Assembly (NCBI RefSeq): GCF_900107375.1 | Contig: NZ_FNPT01000009.1 | Location: 40,262-104,261 of the forward strand | Source: Lysobacter sp. yr284 | GTDB taxonomy: Bacteria > Pseudomonadota > Gammaproteobacteria > Xanthomonadales > Xanthomonadaceae | Reading direction: 5' to 3' | Length of the DNA stretch: 64,000 nucleotides | Part shown: piece after piece, positions 157 to 62,145 of the stretch | Layout of the letters: every line of letters starts with the position of its first letter | Numbering within the stretch: position 1 is the stretch's first letter | The notes under the pieces: model-generated | Seen by the model: only the letters and a program-made list of their open reading frames with translations | What the model was told of the DNA's origin: nothing | The model's database searches: none | Made by a program: the position numbers and the translations under genes

Positions 157-482
157 AGCGACGAAGTGGATTCGGATTTGGCCGCAATGACGAGGCCAGG
201 GCCAGGGCGCCGGAGCCGGGGCCGGCGCCGGAGCGAGGTGCCGCGGCTGTCGTTTCGGCGAAGCAGGGCCGGATGAGACGCCGCCGTGGCGGCGCATGTG
301 CCCGGTCCGGGTGAACTTCGGTCCGCCGGCCCAGTCCAATCCGCTCCATGCCACGGCCCGTCGCGCAAGCGCCGCCCGCCGCCGGCCCGGTCGGGAAAAC
401 CCGCGTGTGGTCACGGTCCTTGCCGGGCCCGGACCCGCGCCGTTACCCTGACCCCCCGCAAAAAGGACCTGCTGCACGCCTC

Positions 483-52100: not shown

Positions 52101-54209
52101 GTGGCAAAAATTACCAAGACCTTCCAGTACGGCAACCATCAGGTGACCCTGGAGACCGGCGAAATCGCCCGTCAGGCCGGCGGCGCCGTCATCGTCAAGA
52201 TGGACGACACCGTGCTGCTGGTGACCGCCGTCGCCGCCAAGAGCGCGCGCGAGGGGCAGGATTTCTTCCCGCTCACCGTCGATTACCAGGAGAAGTTCTA
52301 CGCCGGCGGCCGCATCCCGGGCGGCTTCTTCAAGCGCGAGGGCCGCGCGACGGAGAAGGAAACCCTGATCTCGCGCCTGATCGACCGTCCGATCCGCCCG
52401 CTGTTCCCGGAAGACTACCGTAACGAAGTGCAGATCATCGCCACGGTGATGTCGCTCAATCCGGAAGTCGACGGCGACATCCCGGCGCTGATCGGCGCCT
52501 CGGCCGCGATGGCGCTGGCCGGCACCCCGTTCCAGGGCCCGATCGGCGCGGCCAAGGTCGGCTACAAGAACGGCCAGTACCTGCTCAACCCGACCGCCAC
52601 CGAGCTGGCCGACTCCGACCTGGAACTGGTCGTGGCCGGCACCTCCAACGCGGTGCTGATGGTCGAATCCGAAGCCGACATGCTGTCCGAAGAGGTCATG
52701 CTCGGCGCGGTGATGTTCGGCCATCGCGAGATGCAGAAGGTCATCAACATCATCAACGAGCTGGTCGTCGAAGCCGGCACCAAGCCGTCGAGCTGGGAAG
52801 CTCCGGCCAAGAACGAAGCGCTGATCGGCGCGCTCAAGGAAGCGGTGGGCGACCAGCTCGCCGGCGCCTTCCAGGTGCGCGACAAGCTGCAGCGCCGCGA
52901 CGCCATCGGCGCGATCAAGAAGGACGTGCTGCTGTCGCTGGCCGGCCGCGCCGAAGCCGACGGCTGGTCCACGGGCGAACTGTCGAAGGAATTCGGCGAG
53001 CTCGAGTACCAGACCATGCGCAGCTCGGTGCTCGACACCAAGATCCGCATCGACGGCCGCGCGCTCGACACCGTGCGCCCGATCTCCTCGAAGGTCGGCG
53101 TGCTGCCGCGCACCCACGGCTCCTCGCTGTTCACCCGCGGCGAAACCCAGGCCATCGTGGTCGCCACCCTCGGCACCGCGCGCGACGGCCAGATCATCGA
53201 CGCCGTCTCGGGCGAGTACAAGGAACACTTCCTGTTCCACTACAACTTCCCGCCCTTCTCGGTCGGCGAGTGCGGCCGCATGATGGGCCCGAAGCGTCGC
53301 GAAATCGGCCACGGCCGCCTGGCCAAGCGCGGCGTGCTCGCCGTGATGCCGACCATGGAAGCGTTCCCGTACACCATCCGCGTGGTCTCGGAAATCACCG
53401 AGTCCAACGGCTCGTCGTCGATGGCTTCGGTCTGCGGCAGCTCGCTGGCGCTGATGGACGCGGGCGTGCCGATCAAGGCGCCGGTCGCCGGCATCGCCAT
53501 GGGCCTGGTCAAGGAAGGCGACAACTTCGTCGTCCTGTCCGACATCCTGGGCGATGAAGATCACCTCGGCGACATGGACTTCAAGGTCGCCGGCACGTCG
53601 GAAGGCATCTCGGCGCTGCAGATGGACATCAAGATCCAGGGCATCACCGAAGAGATCATGAAGGTCGCGCTGGAGCAGGCCAAGGCCGGCCGCCTGCACA
53701 TCCTCGGCGAGATGGCCCACGCCATCACCGAGTCGCGCTCGGAGCTGTCCGAGTACGCGCCGCGCCTGCTGACGATGAAGATCCACCCGGACAAGATCCG
53801 CGAAGTGATCGGCAAGGGCGGCTCGACCATCCAGGCGATCACCAAGGAAACCGGCACCCAGATCGACATCCAGGACGACGGCACCATCGTCATCGCCTCG
53901 GTCAACGCCGCCGCCGCGCAGGCCGCCAAGTCGCGCATCGACCAGATCGTCTCCGACGTCGAGCCGGGCCGCATCTACGAAGGCAAGGTCGCCAAGATCA
54001 TGGACTTCGGCGCGTTCGTGACCATCCTGCCGGGCAAGGACGGCCTGGTGCACGTCTCGCAGATCTCCAACGAGCGCGTCGAGAAGGTCTCCGACAAGCT
54101 CAAGGAAGGCGACGTGGTCAAGGTCAAGGTGCTGGAAGTCGACAAGCAGGGCCGCATCCGCCTGTCGATGAAGGCCGTGGAAGAAGGCGAGGGCGTCTCG
54201 GCCGAGTAA
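52101..54209 (+). CDS. pnp: Polyribonucleotide nucleotidyltransferase (PNPase)
   Basis: A 702-residue trimeric 3'-5' phosphorolytic exoribonuclease of the degradosome. Two RNase PH domains (about 1-210 and 300-545) flank a helical domain, followed by KH ([19 protein letters not shown], about 553-612) and S1 ([20 protein letters not shown], about 620-690). Catalytic-core motifs such as [32 protein letters not shown]-type and GRLAKRG are present. Start GTG at 52101 with AAGGAA upstream. The 258-base leader could carry the RNase III-processed hairpin known in E. coli, not verified here. Confidence 0.97.
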
Positions 54210-54235
54210 TCGCCGGGCGACATCGCAGTAAACGA

Positions 54236-54265
54236 AAAAGCGGGCTTCGGCCCGCTTTTTCTTTG
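54236..54265 (+). terminator. Rho-independent terminator of pnp
   Basis: An 11-bp perfect stem AAAAAGCGGGC/GCCCGCTTTTT with a TTCG tetraloop and trailing TCTTT, 26 bases after the pnp stop. Confidence 0.96.
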
Positions 54266-54689
54266 TCCGCAAAACGGCCGCGACGCCTCGCGGCTCACGC
54301 CTGGGCACGCGTGGTGTGACCGATTCGGCCTGAAATTGCCTGCATCGCGACGGCATGTCCTGGTTCGGCGCGCAGCGGAGATAAACCCTGTCGATACGGA
54401 TTCAGACGGCCGCGAAGCGGCTTGGGGCCGCCGGATTCGACGGTAGGCGCGGATGCGCGAACGCGTTCGCTGGGTACGGCTCGCCGATTCCCGCGTGCAA
54501 AGCCCCGGCGGCGCGCCGATCGGACTGGGAGGCGGGGGCCTTGAGGATGTGCCTGGAGCGGTTTCGCGTTAGTGCGCCAACCGCGCCGCGGCGTGCCGCG
54601 CCTCGCCGCGGCGAACGCATCCGGTTGTCGCAGGAGTACGAAGCGCCGACGCCGGGCGCGACCCTGCAGCCGATGGTCAGCGCCGCGAG
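54266..54689. other. Non-coding stretch after pnp
   Basis: No gene is supported. A long minus-strand open frame crosses it but has a composition typical of GC-rich antisense frames (Arg/Ala/Gly/Pro). No repeat family member or promoter was recognised. Confidence 0.4.
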
Positions 54690-55152
54690 CCTTGCGGTGA
54701 GCGCACCGGCACGCCCGACGGCGTGACCTGCGGCGCCAACCGGATCTACAGCCATGCCGCGAACCCGGACGGCGGCGACTGCGCAGGCACTCTGTGCGCG
54801 TGCGGTCCGGTGCGGGTGCGTGGCGACGATTTCACCGCGCCGGCCTTGCGCACCCAGGTGCGGACGAATGCGGGCCATGCCCGCTGGACGGCAGGCGACC
54901 CCACCGCGTCCTCGGTGGATATGGCGACGATCGGGCTCTCGCTGGGCCTGCCCACGCTCGCCGCGACCCGGGCGTCCAACGACGCTGCCGGCAACGTTCG
55001 CGTTCAGCGGCGGCAACGGCATCGCCGGCCACGCCACCGCCGCCAGCGGCCAGTGCTTGCCCGGCGCCGCCGGCGCGTTGCCGGCGCGGGCGTCGGCGAG
55101 CACGGCGCCCCCGAGGCCGCGACCGCAGCCAGGCGGCCTCAGCGTGTCCTGA
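54690..55152 (+). pseudogene. Probable decayed gene, frameshifted
   Basis: About 100 codons in one frame (GERTGTPDGVTCGANRIYS onward to ASNDAAGN) have the GC-ending codon bias of real genes. Near 54994 this bias jumps to the next frame (FAFSGGNGIAGHATAASG) and runs to a TGA at about 55150. One extra base would explain it. There is no start codon or ribosome binding site in the right place. Further bias in a third reading (CYTKDTDPGWAGDKGDALV) continues at 55222-55310, and GLSLGLP there resembles MGLSLKLD. Its family is unknown; Cys-rich secreted style suggests an extracellular protein. Confidence 0.35.
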
Positions 55153-55190
55153 TCGACCCCCGGCGCACGATTCAGGTCAGGAAGTATTCG

Positions 55191-55227
55191 GTAGCAGGGG
55201 TTCGCGGGTCCGCGAACGGACTGCTAC
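55191..55227. other. Two-step hairpin upstream of the repeat-protein gene
   Basis: Outer stem GTAGCAG/CTGCTAC and inner stem GTTCGCGG/CCGCGAAC (8 bp, GT tip) separated by GG and GGA internal loops. It ends 145 bases before the start of the large gene. It may be a regulatory leader structure or a degenerate GTAG-type repeat. Confidence 0.55.
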
Positions 55228-55371
55228 ACCAAAGACACAGACCCCGGCTGGGCAGGGGACAAAGGGGATGCGCTGGTGATGGGGCTGAGCTTGAAGCTGG
55301 ATTCGGTGGCGCCAATCGGCCGCGACGCGGGGGTCGCTACCGGCGTCGGGTTGTTTCAGGGGGATAACACA

Positions 55372-58300
55372 ATGGAATCGATCCGAACGGCTGTCGCGCG
55401 ACGCGCAGCCCATACCGGCATGACGGACGCAGCAGGCCCGCAGCGGGCTACGGCGGCGCCGAGGCCCGCCGGTTCGCGATACGCGCTCCTGGCGCTGCTG
55501 GTACTGGCCGGCATGGTGCCGTTCCACGCGGCGCAGGCGCAGGTCACGGTCTTCGACGAGACCTTCACCGGTGGCAATGCGTCGGCCACCGCCACCAATC
55601 CCACACTGATTACCAACTACGTTGGCGCCCCGCCGGAGAACATGACCTTCACCACGACTCCGGCGTGGTCGAATACAGGCACTTGCAATGGCATTGTGGC
55701 GTCTTGGTCGCAAGCTGCTAACAGTCCGGTCGGCACAGCACATTGCGGCGGCTTCCAGTCGTGGTGGAACAACGTGCAGGGTTTGGCGCTCGCAATGGGC
55801 GCTTACGATGCCAACCTCCCGAACGGTCAGAATGCGACGAACGCCGGCACGGCGGCTACCGAGAATCTGTCGGTCGCGGCTTACACGGGCGCCAACCCTG
55901 GTGCCCCGAACACGATCATCCAGAACGCAACGCCGATTGCGTTGCCTGTCAGCCCGGCAGGCGGCAGCGGCCGCTTCGTGACGCTCCGCTTCACTGCTGC
56001 CGCAATGAACTGCGGTGCACCGGGCGCATCCGATCCCGTGATTACGTTTGCATTGAATGGCACCGAGCTGGACCTCGCGGCGGGTGGCACGAATCTCTGC
56101 CGCGGGGGACTGAACCCCAGGACCTACTCCATTCCCGCCAAGGGGAGCGCGTCCGCCACAACAGCTCGCGTTGCCGCTTTCTACCCCAATGGCAGCCTCT
56201 CGAGGCTACTCACGGCCCCCATCACCGTCCGCTTGACCAACCGTGTAGCCACCGGCAGCGGCAACGACTGGGCCTGGGACAATTTCACCGTGGTCGACGT
56301 GACGCCCTCGGTCACCAAGGCGGTGGACGGGCTGGATTATGTCGGCCAGACCAAGCGTCTGACCTTCACCGTCACCAATACCACCGGCGACAACGGGCTC
56401 AAGAACGGCTGGGCCTTCACCGACACCTTGCCTGCCAACGTCACCGTGGCCAATCCGGCCGGCGTGACCGTTGGCGGTGCGGCGGGCTGCTCGGCGACCA
56501 CCTCCGGCACCGTTGCGGGCGGCAACGCCATCGTCGTCACCGGCGGCAACCTGCCGGCCGGCACCGCGGGCGGCACGGCGACCACCTGCACCATCGCGGT
56601 CGATGTGGTCAGCACCGTGCCCGGCATCTACATCAACAACGGCAGCAATTTCACCTCGTCGACGGGTTTGAACGTCCCCACCGTCGATACGCAGATGGAA
56701 TGGGTGCGCAACACCGTGACCGTCACCAAGATCACCCAAAACGGCACGGGGGCTTTCAGCTTCACCAACGGCAACGACACCGCAACAGGCAGCCTGCCTT
56801 ACACCATCACCACGACTGCCGCGGGCGCGCCCGGCACGGCCGGTCCGCAGCGCATCCTGACCGCTGCCAGCGCAACGGCTACCACCACCTTGAGCGAAGC
56901 GGCGGTCGCCGGCTGGGCGGTGACCGGCACGCCGGCCTGCACCGTGGGCGGCGCTGCGCTGGCCGGCGTGGCCTATGCCGCCGGCACGCGAACGCTGACC
57001 TTGCCCGCGTTGCCGGTCGTGACCGGCGGCAGGGATGTGCAGTGCAGCTTCATCAACTCGCGCCAGACCGTGACCGTGGTCAAGAGCGTCACCAACGACA
57101 ACGGCGGCAACGCGACCGCGGCCAACTTCAACATCGTGTTCAACGGCAGCGCGGTGAGCTTCGGCGCCCCGACCGGATCGGCGCCGACCCTGACGTATTC
57201 GACGAATGCGATTGAAGTTCCTGTCGGCACCTATGCCTTGAGCGAAGCCGACGTGGCCGGCTACACCGAAGGCACGTGGACCTGCACCGGCACCGGCGTG
57301 ACCATGAACTCCACCGCGTTCGACAACGGCAGCGTGACCCTGGCCGACGGCGCGAGCGCCACCTGCACCATCACCAACGACGACACCGCGGCCGCGCTGA
57401 CCTTGCGCAAGACCGTGGTCAACGACAACGGCGGCACCGCGGTGGCGACGGCCTGGACCTTGAACGCCGCCGGCCCGACCCCGATCAGCGGCGCGCACGG
57501 CGCGGCGGCGGTGACCAATGCCGCGGTCGGCGCGGGCACGTACACCTTGTCCGAGAACGGCGGGCCCGCGGGTTACACGGCGTCCGCCTACAGTTGCTCG
57601 ATCGACGGCGGCGCGGCCGTCGCCGGCAATACGCTGGCGCTGGGCAGCGGCCAGAGCGCGGTGTGCACCGTCACCAACGACGACACCCCGGCCACGCTGA
57701 CGCTGCGCAAGAGCGTGGTCAACGACAACGGCGGCACCGCGGTGGCGACGGCCTGGACCTTGAACGCGGCCGGCCCGACCCCGATCAGCGGCGCGCACGG
57801 CGCGGCGGCGGTGACCGATGCCGCGGTCGGCGCGGGCACGTACACCTTGTCCGAGAACGGCGGGCCGGCCGGCTATACGGCCTCGGCCTACAGCTGTTCG
57901 ATCGACGGCGGCGCGGCCGTCGTCGGCGACACGCTGGCGTTGGTCAACGGCCAGAACGCGGTCTGCACCGTCACCAACGACGACACCCCGGCCACGCTGA
58001 CCTTGCAAAAGATCGTGGTTAACGACAGCGGCGGCACCGCGGTGGCGACGGCGTGGACCTTGAACGCGGCCGGCCCGACCCCGATCAGCGGCGCTCACGG
58101 CGCGGCGGCGGTGACCGGTGCGGCGGTCAGCGCGGGCACCTATACGCTGTCGGAAACGGGCGGCCCTGGCGGCTACGCCGCCTCGGCCTATAGCTGCTCG
58201 ATCGATGGCGGCGCGGCCGTCGCCGGCAATTCGTTGACCCTGGCCAACGGCCAGAGCGCGGTCTGCGCCATCACCAACGATGACCAGCCGGCGCGGTTGA

Positions 58301-60093
58301 CCTTGCAGAAGAACGTGATCAACGACAGTGGCGGTACGGTGCAACGCACGGCCTGGACCTTGAACGCTGCCGGCCCGACACCGATCAGCGGCACGCATGG
58401 CGCGGCGCCGGTGACCAATGCGGCGGTCACCGCCGGCGCCTACACGCTGTCGGAGACCGGCCCGGCCGGCTACAACGCCGGCGCCTGGCAATGCACCAAC
58501 GGCGTGACCGTGAACGGGAACAGCCAGATCACCCTGGCCAACGGCGCAACCACCAGCTGCACGATCACCAACAACGACCGGCCGACGGTGCTGTCGCTGC
58601 TCAAGACCGTGGTCAACGACAACGGCGGCACCCGGGTAGCCGCCAACTGGACGCTGAGGGCCGCCGGCCCGTCGACGATCAGCGGCGCGGCGCCGGTCCT
58701 GCTCCGAACAGTGAATCCTGGTACCTACACCCTGTCCGAAACTGGGCCGGGGGGCTACACGGCCAGCGCCTGGACGTGCACTGGCGGGTTGACCGTGACG
58801 GGAGGAAACCAGGTCATTGTGCCAACTGGTTTCAACGGTGCTTGCAGCATCACCAACAACGACCAGCCGGCGCAGCTGACCCTGCAGAAAACCGTGGTCA
58901 ACGACAATGGCGGTGCGGCCGTCGCGACCGACTGGACGCTGGCGGCGGCCGGCCCGACCGCGATCAGCGGCACGCACGGCGCGACCACGGTGACCAATGC
59001 GACGGTCAACGCGGGCACCTACGTCCTGTCCGAAAATGGTGGCCCGGCCGGCTATACGGCTTCGGCCTATAGCTGTTCGATCAATGGCGGTGCGGCGGTC
59101 GCCGGCAATTCGCTGGCCTTGGCCAACGGCCAGAACGCGGTGTGCACCATCACCAACGACGACACGCCGGCCACGCTGACCTTGCAAAAGACCGTGGTCA
59201 ACGACGACGGCGGCACCGCGGTGGCGACGGCCTGGACCTTGAACGCGGCCGGCCCGACGCAGATCAGCGGTACGCACGGCGCGGCGGCGGTGACCAACGT
59301 GGCGGTCGGCGCGGGCACCTACACGTTGTCGGAAAACGGCGGCCCGGCCGGCTACGCGGCTTCGGACTACAGCTGTTCGATCGACGGCGGCGCGGCGGTC
59401 GCCGGCAACTCGGTGACGCTGGCCGGCGGCCAGAACGCGGTGTGCACCGTGACCAACGACGACACGCCGGCCACGCTGACGCTGCGCAAGAGCGTGGTCA
59501 ACGACAACGGCGGCACCGCGGTGGCGACGGCCTGGACCTTGAACGCGGCCGGCCCGACCCCGATCAGCGGCGCCCATGGCGCAGCGGCGGTGACCGATGC
59601 GGCAGTCGGCGCGGGCACCTACACGTTGTCGGAAAGCGGCGGCCCTGCCGGGTACACGGCTTCGGCCTACAGCTGCTCGATCGACGGCGGCGCGGCGGTC
59701 GCCGGCGATTCGGTGACGCTGGCCAACGGCCAGAGCGCGGTGTGCACCGTCACCAACGACGATAGCAACGAAGCCGACCTGTCGATCACCAAGAGCAATA
59801 CCTATACGCCGGCCGATCCCAGCGACCAGGCCGGCGACACGGTGGTCGCCGGAGCGGCCACGACGTATACGGTGGTGGTGACCAACAACGGCCCGGCCAC
59901 GGTCGTCGGCGCGGTGGTGCGCGATACGCCGCAGGCGGGATTGGACTGTCCGGCGGCGAATCCGGTGACCTGCAGCGGCGCGGCCTGTCCGGGCGGAGCG
60001 ATCACCGTCGGCGACCTGGGCGGCGGAGTGACGCTGGGCGCATTGGCGGCGGGCGCGACGGCGACGTTCGCCTTCAGCTGCGCGGTGCAGTAG
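55372..60093 (+). CDS. Large secreted repeat protein with eight SpaA/prealbumin-like domains
   Basis: A 1573-residue protein. A long N-region and signal peptide (hydrophobic 33-57, cleavage near AQA) precede an unrecognised lectin-like domain (about 58-310), a DUF11-like beta-sandwich (about 313-440), two diverged prealbumin-like units (about 445-675), eight near-identical 95-100-residue units (about 674-1466) and a C-terminal DUF11-like domain (1470-1573). Each unit has LTL(R/Q)K, LSE(N/T)GGPAGY and a terminal C(T/S)(V/I)TND motif, plus two cysteines. No LPXTG, IPTL-CTERM or autotransporter domain is seen, so anchoring is unclear. The ATG at 55372 has AGGGGG 8 bases upstream. Probable role: extracellular fibre or adhesin, by inference. 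The N-terminal third has visibly lower GC at third positions than neighbours. Confidence 0.85.
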   Translation: MESIRTAVARRAAHTGMTDAAGPQRATAAPRPAGSRYALLALLVLAGMVPFHAAQAQVTVFDETFTGGNASATATNPTLITNYVGAPPENMTFTTTPAWSNTGTCNGIVASWSQAANSPVGTAHCGGFQSWWNNVQGLALAMGAYDANLPNGQNATNAGTAATENLSVAAYTGANPGAPNTIIQNATPIALPVSPAGGSGRFVTLRFTAAAMNCGAPGASDPVITFALNGTELDLAAGGTNLCRGGLNPRTYSIPAKGSASATTARVAAFYPNGSLSRLLTAPITVRLTNRVATGSGNDWAWDNFTVVDVTPSVTKAVDGLDYVGQTKRLTFTVTNTTGDNGLKNGWAFTDTLPANVTVANPAGVTVGGAAGCSATTSGTVAGGNAIVVTGGNLPAGTAGGTATTCTIAVDVVSTVPGIYINNGSNFTSSTGLNVPTVDTQMEWVRNTVTVTKITQNGTGAFSFTNGNDTATGSLPYTITTTAAGAPGTAGPQRILTAASATATTTLSEAAVAGWAVTGTPACTVGGAALAGVAYAAGTRTLTLPALPVVTGGRDVQCSFINSRQTVTVVKSVTNDNGGNATAANFNIVFNGSAVSFGAPTGSAPTLTYSTNAIEVPVGTYALSEADVAGYTEGTWTCTGTGVTMNSTAFDNGSVTLADGASATCTITNDDTAAALTLRKTVVNDNGGTAVATAWTLNAAGPTPISGAHGAAAVTNAAVGAGTYTLSENGGPAGYTASAYSCSIDGGAAVAGNTLALGSGQSAVCTVTNDDTPATLTLRKSVVNDNGGTAVATAWTLNAAGPTPISGAHGAAAVTDAAVGAGTYTLSENGGPAGYTASAYSCSIDGGAAVVGDTLALVNGQNAVCTVTNDDTPATLTLQKIVVNDSGGTAVATAWTLNAAGPTPISGAHGAAAVTGAAVSAGTYTLSETGGPGGYAASAYSCSIDGGAAVAGNSLTLANGQSAVCAITNDDQPARLTLQKNVINDSGGTVQRTAWTLNAAGPTPISGTHGAAPVTNAAVTAGAYTLSETGPAGYNAGAWQCTNGVTVNGNSQITLANGATTSCTITNNDRPTVLSLLKTVVNDNGGTRVAANWTLRAAGPSTISGAAPVLLRTVNPGTYTLSETGPGGYTASAWTCTGGLTVTGGNQVIVPTGFNGACSITNNDQPAQLTLQKTVVNDNGGAAVATDWTLAAAGPTAISGTHGATTVTNATVNAGTYVLSENGGPAGYTASAYSCSINGGAAVAGNSLALANGQNAVCTITNDDTPATLTLQKTVVNDDGGTAVATAWTLNAAGPTQISGTHGAAAVTNVAVGAGTYTLSENGGPAGYAASDYSCSIDGGAAVAGNSVTLAGGQNAVCTVTNDDTPATLTLRKSVVNDNGGTAVATAWTLNAAGPTPISGAHGAAAVTDAAVGAGTYTLSESGGPAGYTASAYSCSIDGGAAVAGDSVTLANGQSAVCTVTNDDSNEADLSITKSNTYTPADPSDQAGDTVVAGAATTYTVVVTNNGPATVVGAVVRDTPQAGLDCPAANPVTCSGAACPGGAITVGDLGGGVTLGALAAGATATFAFSCAVQ
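57391..59769 (+). repeat. Eight tandem ~300-bp coding repeats
   Basis: Units start at 57391, 57691, 57991, 58291, 58585, 58870, 59170 and 59470, lengths 300, 300, 300, 294, 285, 300, 300 and 300 bases. Units 4 and 5 are the most diverged. Units 2 and 8 are identical over their first 104 bases although 1.8 kb apart, which suggests recent recombination or gene conversion. Confidence 0.95.
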
Positions 60094-60213
60094 TCCGGCT
60101 TCGTCGCAGGCGGTGGCGATGCGGATCGGGCCGCATCGCCGTTGCTCGCCAGCGTTCCGGCGCATAGCTCGATGAGCCGAATTACCGGCAGCACGCCACC
60201 GCCGACGCGACGC

Positions 60214-60249
60214 ACGAAGAGCGAGCCTGGGCTCGCTCTTCGTGTTTTT
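60214..60249. terminator. Terminator after the repeat-protein gene
   Basis: A 13-bp perfect stem ACGAAGAGCGAGC/GCTCGCTCTTCGT with a CTGG loop and GTTTTTG tail on the plus side. It is 120 bases after the stop codon and 78 bases from the end of the convergent MATE gene. Confidence 0.9.
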
Positions 60250-60327
60250 GCGGATACACGCCGGATCGGATCGGGTCGGCGTTCGGCGTTGCGACAGCCT
60301 GCGGCGACGCATCGCAGATGCGTCGGC

Positions 60328-61683: not shown

Positions 61684-61918
61684 GCGGGGGGGCCTGTGGG
61701 TGGGGCGCGCAGAAGCAGAGGGCGGGTCGGGAAAAACGCGACTGCCGATGCGGCCGACGCGGCGAAGCAGCGAAGCGGATTTGGAGCCGTCTCTGGGCGC
61801 CGGCGCGGATTGCGGGGTCGGTGTTGCCTTGTGCGTGGCGTGGCGCGACGCGGCTCGGCTCGGCGATGCGGTGTTCGTATTGCGGTACGCGTGGAAGCGA
61901 TTCGGTGTTGGTGTTGCG

Positions 61919-62040
61919 GCCTTCGTACAAGCGCTGCGGCGCTGGTGTTGCGGCCTTCGTACAAGCGCTGAAGTGCTGGTGTTGCGGTCTTCGTACAAGC
62001 GCTGCAGTGCTGGCGTTGCGGTCTTCGTGCAAGCGCTGCG
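61919..62040. repeat. 34-bp tandem repeat array
   Basis: Units at 61919, 61953 and 61987 are full length and a fourth at 62021 is truncated after 20 bases. The unit is G(C/T)CTTCGTACAAGCGCTG then NNGNGCTGG(T/C)GTTGCG; units differ at 4-6 positions. Because 34 is not a multiple of three, the array cycles reading frames and is not a protein repeat. Confidence 0.92.
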
Positions 62041-62145
62041 GATCGGATTCGCGCTGTCCCCCACGAGCTGTCTTCGAGCGGTCGCCTGGATGCGACGCGC
62101 ATCGGTGGGAGCGACGGTCGGCGGCTTCCTGGCCGCCTGTTCAAA

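Follow-up and report, generated by a model that had tools for sequence, protein, structure and literature searches.

A Lysobacter repeat protein with nine tandem SpaA_2 domains that probably carry intramolecular isopeptide bonds

The window analyzed here, 64,000 nucleotides from Lysobacter sp. yr284 (assembly GCF_900107375.1, contig NZ_FNPT01000009.1, positions 40,262 to 104,261), belongs to a 6.25 Mb genome of a Gram-negative genus and contains a gene for a long repeat protein. The open frame spans 55276-60093 on the forward strand and, from the likely start codon, encodes a protein of about 1570 amino acids. Pfam matches, together with inspection by eye, order the chain as signal peptide, head, DUF7933 domain, SpaA_4 domain, nine SpaA_2 units and a DUF11-like C-terminal cap (Table 1). 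A signal-like N-terminus is visible by eye in this protein and in its relatives. The chain ends in FAFSCAVQ, inside the cap, and has neither an LPXTG motif nor a hydrophobic tail. The possibility that a frameshift at 60091 had cut the gene short was rejected, as relatives stop at the same place, and an antisense frame of 1368 amino acids (56206-60312) is taken as an artefact.

The repeat array is the most prominent feature of the gene. Positions 57391-59769 are tiled exactly by eight in-frame units of 100, 100, 100, 98, 95, 100, 100 and 100 amino acids, and Tandem Repeats Finder reports a 300-base array of 8.1 copies at 57364-59762 (score 2468). An earlier note on this DNA, made from the letters alone, had described eight SpaA/Cna-B-like repeats here, each with a Lys, a Glu, an Asn and two cysteines. 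All of these residues are found, in the diverged units 4 and 5 as well: Lys7, Glu55, Cys69, Cys92 and Asn96 (unit-1 numbering) are invariant. The count of eight, exact for units 1-8, missed a diverged ninth unit immediately upstream (unit 0, 57067-57390), which has the same five residues. The Pfam family SpaA_2 (PF19403) matches nine stretches of the protein with 715 bits in total against a cut-off of 25, and all nine unit places lie above the cut-off in a genome search with the same profile. The flanking motifs are looser than the note had them. The Lys of LTLRK/LTLQK is present in every unit, but unit 5 reads LSLLK; the Glu of LSENGGPAGY/LSETGPAGY is present throughout, but units 3, 5 and 8 read LSETGGPGGY, LSETGPGGY and LSESGGPAGY; and the Asn of CTVTND is kept everywhere, but units 3-6 end in CAITND, CTITNN, CSITNN and CTITND.

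Table 1. Features of the repeat-protein gene in the window; positions given for Lys, Glu and Asn are those of their codons.
Feature	Positions	Strand	Remarks
Whole gene	55372..60093	+	open frame 55276-60093; probably starts at ATG 55372
Probable signal peptide	55372..55539	+	n-region long, core hydrophobic; HAAQA at its end, QVTVFDE following; identified by eye
N-terminal head, about 257 aa	55540..56310	+	no Pfam family and, by sequence profile, no solved relative; type common to 9 of 11 related genes
DUF7933 domain	56293..56700	+	Lys and Asn in 9 of 9 aligned orthologues; acid is Asp in 6, Glu in 3
SpaA_4 domain	56698..57066	+	Lys, Glu and Asn in 9 of 9 aligned orthologues
SpaA_2 unit 0 (ninth, diverged)	57067..57390	+	Lys, Glu, Asn, two Cys; 44% identity to unit 1
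SpaA_2 unit 1	57391..57690	+	Lys 57409, Glu 57553, Asn 57676
SpaA_2 unit 2	57691..57990	+	Lys 57709, Glu 57853, Asn 57976; AlphaFold2 model made with short flanks, 57682-57996
SpaA_2 unit 3	57991..58290	+	Lys 58009, Glu 58153, Asn 58276
SpaA_2 unit 4 (diverged)	58291..58584	+	Lys 58309, Glu 58453, Asn 58570
SpaA_2 unit 5 (the most diverged among units 1-8)	58585..58869	+	Lys 58603, Glu 58738, Asn 58855
SpaA_2 unit 6	58870..59169	+	Lys 58888, Glu 59032, Asn 59155 (Asn from alignment)
SpaA_2 unit 7	59170..59469	+	Lys 59188, Glu 59332, Asn 59455
SpaA_2 unit 8	59470..59769	+	Lys 59488, Glu 59632, Asn 59755
C-terminal cap, DUF11 (CLIPPER)-like	59770..60090	+	Lys and Asp kept; stops before the Asn strand

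Units 1, 2, 3, 6, 7 and 8 share 77-92% identity with one another, while unit 5 shares 55-59% with the other seven of units 1-8. Across the 28 pairs among units 1-8, the ratio of nonsynonymous to synonymous substitution rates (dN/dS) is 0.16-0.51, which shows that purifying selection acts on them. Because six of the units are so similar, the invariance of residues within the nine is weak evidence when taken alone, and the diverged units 5 and 0 say more.

A wider sample was therefore drawn from a collection of genomes from 84,980 species with two peptide patterns, one of which includes the Lys and so favors Lys in the seed units. In total 476 stretches matched, 378 of which encode a relative, and the best 80 were kept, corresponding to 78 loci. 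These loci gave 429 unit matches; 379 span at least 85 of the 100 columns, comprising 377 distinct units with all 78 loci represented, and the 50 shorter matches were omitted. Lys, Glu and Asn are each present in 97% of the 377 units. Cys92 is present in all of them, and Cys69 in 339 (92% of the units with a letter at that column), with the other 38 carrying a second Cys elsewhere. Within Lysobacter, the five residues occur in 107 of 107 units from 18 fetched regions (88 distinct; the nine of the window included).

The pattern of loss is more informative than the level of conservation. All three of Lys, Glu and Asn are found in 365 units; one unit has Asp for Glu (locus L111), one lacks the acid only (L081) and ten lack all three, whereas none of the 377 lacks Lys alone or Asn alone. 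The joint-loss index of the triad, 0.83, is the highest of 969 triples of conserved columns, the next triple reaching 0.22. The rarity of single losses is unlikely to be a detection effect, because a profile of intact units gives a higher score to a unit that lacks one residue than to a unit that lacks three. The ten triad-less units come from four loci, one of Agrococcus sediminis (L087, five units) and three of Chelativorans (L058, two; L072, two; L052, one), and fall into six clades of a tree built without the three triad columns. In none of them is the first site Lys, the second acidic or the third Asn or Asp. All ten keep both cysteines, and the triad is thus separable from the disulfide. 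The proteins that hold these units hold intact units too, so that they supply natural bond-less controls against which the effect of the bond could be measured.

To place the three residues in space, one unit was modeled. The AlphaFold2 model of unit 2 with its flanks has a predicted local distance difference test score (pLDDT) of 97 and is a sandwich in which Lys10 lies in the first strand (residues 4-13), Glu58 in a middle strand (52-59) and Asn99 in the last strand (92-101). The model aligned end to end with four solved pilin domains (3b2m, 170-307; 2xid, 601-719; 4bug/2xic/2xi9, 288..291-601; 5f44/5hbb, 175-301). If these alignments are ungapped near their ends, the range ends place Lys10/Asn99 on the bonded pairs Lys179/Asn303, Lys610/Asn715, Lys297/Asp595 and Lys184/Asp295, respectively. 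As far as the structure prediction was run, it therefore favors a bonded pair over a fold with Lys and Asn on opposite faces.

The earlier note had proposed that Lys, Glu and Asn make a spontaneous isopeptide bond in each unit. For the SpaA_2 units this interpretation is well supported by the joint loss of the triad and the predicted fold, with the range alignment in agreement, and we infer that the repeats very probably form a bonded stalk of nine SpaA_2 (CnaB-type) domains. After export, each unit would fold into a β-sandwich, and the first-strand Lys would react with the last-strand Asn, assisted by the Glu, to give a Lys–Asn amide with loss of ammonia. A Cys69–Cys92 disulfide would probably act as a second lock in each unit. 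Full residue sets are also present in the SpaA_4 and DUF7933 domains, so up to eleven bonds may be expected per chain. The stalk would bear an N-terminal head, which differs among some relatives, and end in a constant C-terminal cap. The note had further envisaged a chain of eight domains as a very stable extracellular fibre. The protein has nine units plus SpaA_4 and DUF7933; it is simpler to read them as a stalk within a single chain than as a fibre put together from subunits. A polymer fibre of the sortase-built pilus type was rejected, as the LPXTG signal is absent.

Could the disulfide alone hold the units? In that case the CnaB-like domains would be locked by Cys69–Cys92, with Lys, Glu and Asn forming an unreactive buried polar cluster. 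The cysteine pair is indeed no less conserved than the triad, and in the portion of a published survey of isopeptide domains used here (PMC12617251), the template method gave many SpaA_2 domains low scores. However, an inert cluster accords poorly with the ten units that have lost all three sites yet keep both cysteines, and with the coincidence, by range, of the residues with the bonded pairs of four solved domains; we regard this explanation as improbable. It is scarcely credible that the array is a recent duplication without a selected role, whose residues seem conserved from the youth of the copies: the 77-92% identity of six units would fit, but unit 5 and unit 0 (44% identity to unit 1) retain all five residues, dN/dS is low, and the conservation reaches across 78 loci that, by record title, belong to several phyla.

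Isopeptide domains outside Gram-positive pili are already in print. Costa et al. (2025) scanned AlphaFold models and, in the parts of their survey drawn on here, list 26 isopeptide families, including SpaA_2 (with Lys, Glu and Asn), SpaA_4, DUF7933 (a CnaA-like family) and DUF11 (PMC12617251). The window protein thus carries four of these families. The same parts report that Pseudomonadota have isopeptide domains in significant number, stress a wide Gram-negative spread for DUF11, DUF7507 and DUF7619, and describe disulfides as prevalent in SpaA_2, SpaA_4 and DUF7933 and in the isopeptide domains of Pseudomonadota (PMC12617251). The occurrence of such units in a Gram-negative protein, which the earlier note had singled out, is accordingly supported and is not new in kind; the window protein is a well-supported new example, not a new phenomenon. 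Searches of one open-access library found no report on the window protein or on its cap. A substantial fraction of the SpaA_2 bonds in the survey was predicted at low confidence (PMC12617251). That earlier prediction came from AlphaFold models, many of them low-scoring; the loss of the triad as a set offers independent evolutionary evidence that the bond of the SpaA_2 family is real.

The SpaA_2 profile matches 18 of 20 genus genomes, that of the window included. Across the class, it matches only one of 94 genomes (E ≤ 1e-8), the window's own; further gammaproteobacteria with SpaA_2 turned up in the pattern search. By record title, close SpaA_2 relatives occur in Candidatus Kaiserbacteria, Falkowbacteria, Uhrbacteria, Staskawiczbacteria, Nomurabacteria and Parcubacteria (L050, L053, L055, L059, L067, L076, L077, L081), and SpaA_2 relatives are also found in Alphaproteobacteria and Actinomycetota. 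A phage origin was rejected: one unit searched against 50,697 phage records gave no match at E 1e-5.

Related genes were compared at 10 loci, which contain 11 genes. The head type of the window protein is present in nine of the 11, and the same kind of cap ends all of them. The SpaA_2 stalk is far more variable: five genes have 9, 6, 5, 1 and 1 units, and six have none. A polynucleotide phosphorylase gene (pnp), 94-98% identical to that of the window, lies nearby upstream at seven of the 10 loci. At L121, pnp is followed by a second cap-bearing frame (892 amino acids), then by a gene with six SpaA_2 units and by MatE, which is convergent as in the window; the six-unit gene has a CshA_NR2 and GEVED head and a cap 86% identical to that of the window protein. 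Either of the two L121 genes could be the true orthologue of the window gene. Positions 52101-60093 of the window and L121, L122, L124, L130, L133 and L135 present a modular, adhesin-like locus on the pnp side, with a constant cap and 0 to 9 SpaA_2 units. Heads differ in two relatives of this locus, and L121 and L133 each have two such genes. Longer SpaA_2 arrays, of 22, 11, 18 and 22 units, were seen in other Lysobacter genomes (L123, L125, L126 and L127). The open frames that hold them measure 3072 to 4724 amino acids within the fetched stretches, which cut three of the four; the fourth, L126, has no cap match. Tandem Repeats Finder also reports 5.3 copies of a 34-base unit at 61863-62041 in the window, around the MatE 5' end.

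An exchangeable head, a variable stalk and a constant end suggest an adhesin, the best evidence being the L121 gene, which lies beside MatE in another species and combines a CshA_NR2 head with a similar cap. The nine tandem SpaA_2 units supply the repetitive stalk expected of a fibrillar adhesin. We consider it likely that the window protein is a secreted, surface-type fibrillar adhesin with a repeat stalk, surface display and adhesion being the less direct parts of this assignment. A released matrix protein, with a real but unanchored stalk, is a possible if doubtful alternative; it concerns the role and is compatible with the bonds. Consistent with release, the Pfam and NCBIfam results for the window protein include no OmpA, LPXTG, sorting-signal or autotransporter domain, and its head matched no Pfam family and, by sequence profile, no solved chain. 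Against release, the CshA_NR2–GEVED head of the L121 relative consists of domains named for the adhesive part of an adhesin in the portion of PMC12617251 used here, and heads vary while stalk type and cap stay constant, as expected for the display of a binding head.

The cap is positioned at the very end of the adhesin-like chain and resembles an incomplete DUF11 domain. It scores 38.1 bits against the DUF11 profile (cut-off 24.6), and only profile positions 11-84 of 114 are covered. Among 47 fetched loci, the best-scoring of a longer list, 45 have a copy that ends 0-6 amino acids past the x-C-x-V strand; L158 and L185 have internal copies only. In 45 distinct terminal copies the Lys is kept in 44 of 44, the Asp in 44 of 45 and the two cysteines in 44 of 44 and 45 of 45. 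For comparison, 67 rows of DUF11 domains in other loci were taken, of which 30 well-covered internal domains were used and 37 left out. These have the Lys in 29 of 29, the Asp in 30 of 30 and the Asn of the next strand in 30 of 30. The terminal copies therefore end short of the segment that opens with the Asn strand. Apart from Asn38 (44 of 45), which is common to complete domains, and Asn10 (40 of 44), which follows the Lys by two residues, no conserved Asn was seen in them that might take its place. Compared by sequence with solved chains, neither the cap nor complete DUF11 domains gave a convincing match, and 9IFR was not among the matches listed.

Many Xanthomonadaceae proteins have such a strand-deficient cap at their very C-terminus (59770-60090 in the window; L139-L157 and L159-L184). 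At E ≤ 1e-3 the cap profile matches 20 of 20 genomes of the genus and 33 of 79 of the family, internal DUF11 domains included and genome G013 matching only weakly; across the class it matches one of 94 genomes at E ≤ 1e-8.

The cap may be a plain disulfide-held terminator, a recognition domain for export or anchoring, or a split isopeptide acceptor. In the last case, which we think unlikely, the cap, with its retained reactive Lys and catalytic Asp, would become joined covalently to an Asn strand from another protein or copy. Self-polymerization through an N-terminal donor strand was rejected: the motif of the last DUF11 strand is absent from the first 60 mature residues in all 11 cap-bearing proteins, nine of these being valid cases, as the signal peptide is miscut in L135 and L136. 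A looser T-N motif occurs there in six of the 11 and is not conserved. Were the cap a split acceptor, it would allow autocatalytic, sortase-free linking of Gram-negative surface proteins with various heads and stalks in Lysobacter and other Xanthomonadaceae, and would account for the fastening of these Gram-negative stalk proteins in the absence of a sortase or an OmpA anchor.

Several known systems resemble the bonded stalk in part. The units resemble the CnaB domains of pilins (3b2m, Spy0128 C-domain; 2xid and 4bug, two domains of Cpa; 5f44, GG-SpaA C-domain) in the predicted fold and in the Lys and Asn positions as given by range ends. Those domains belong to sortase-built pili, whereas the window protein has no LPXTG and its units follow one another in one chain. 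Within the family, the SpaA_2 example of the survey, an AlphaFold model and not a solved structure, has its Asn (627) two residues past the Pfam end (625; PMC12617251), and window unit 4 is alike (Asn 1099, end 1097). For overall architecture, the fibrillar adhesin B9T28_05395 of Acinetobacter silvestris, as described in the portion of the survey used here, is likewise Gram-negative and couples an adhesive head to an isopeptide stalk, and its pair of CshA_NR2-like and GEVED-like head domains recurs in the L121 relative (PMC12617251). It has a stalk of DUF11 and cadherin-like domains and an OmpA-like end, whereas the window protein has a SpaA_2 stalk and a strand-deficient DUF11 end. Finally, near-identical tandem units that vary in number from one related gene to another (from 0 to 9 SpaA_2 units across the 11 compared) recall the Periscope proteins, as presented in the part of PMC9704523 used here. 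In those proteins the number varies within a population, whereas the variation seen here, with one genome per species, is between species.
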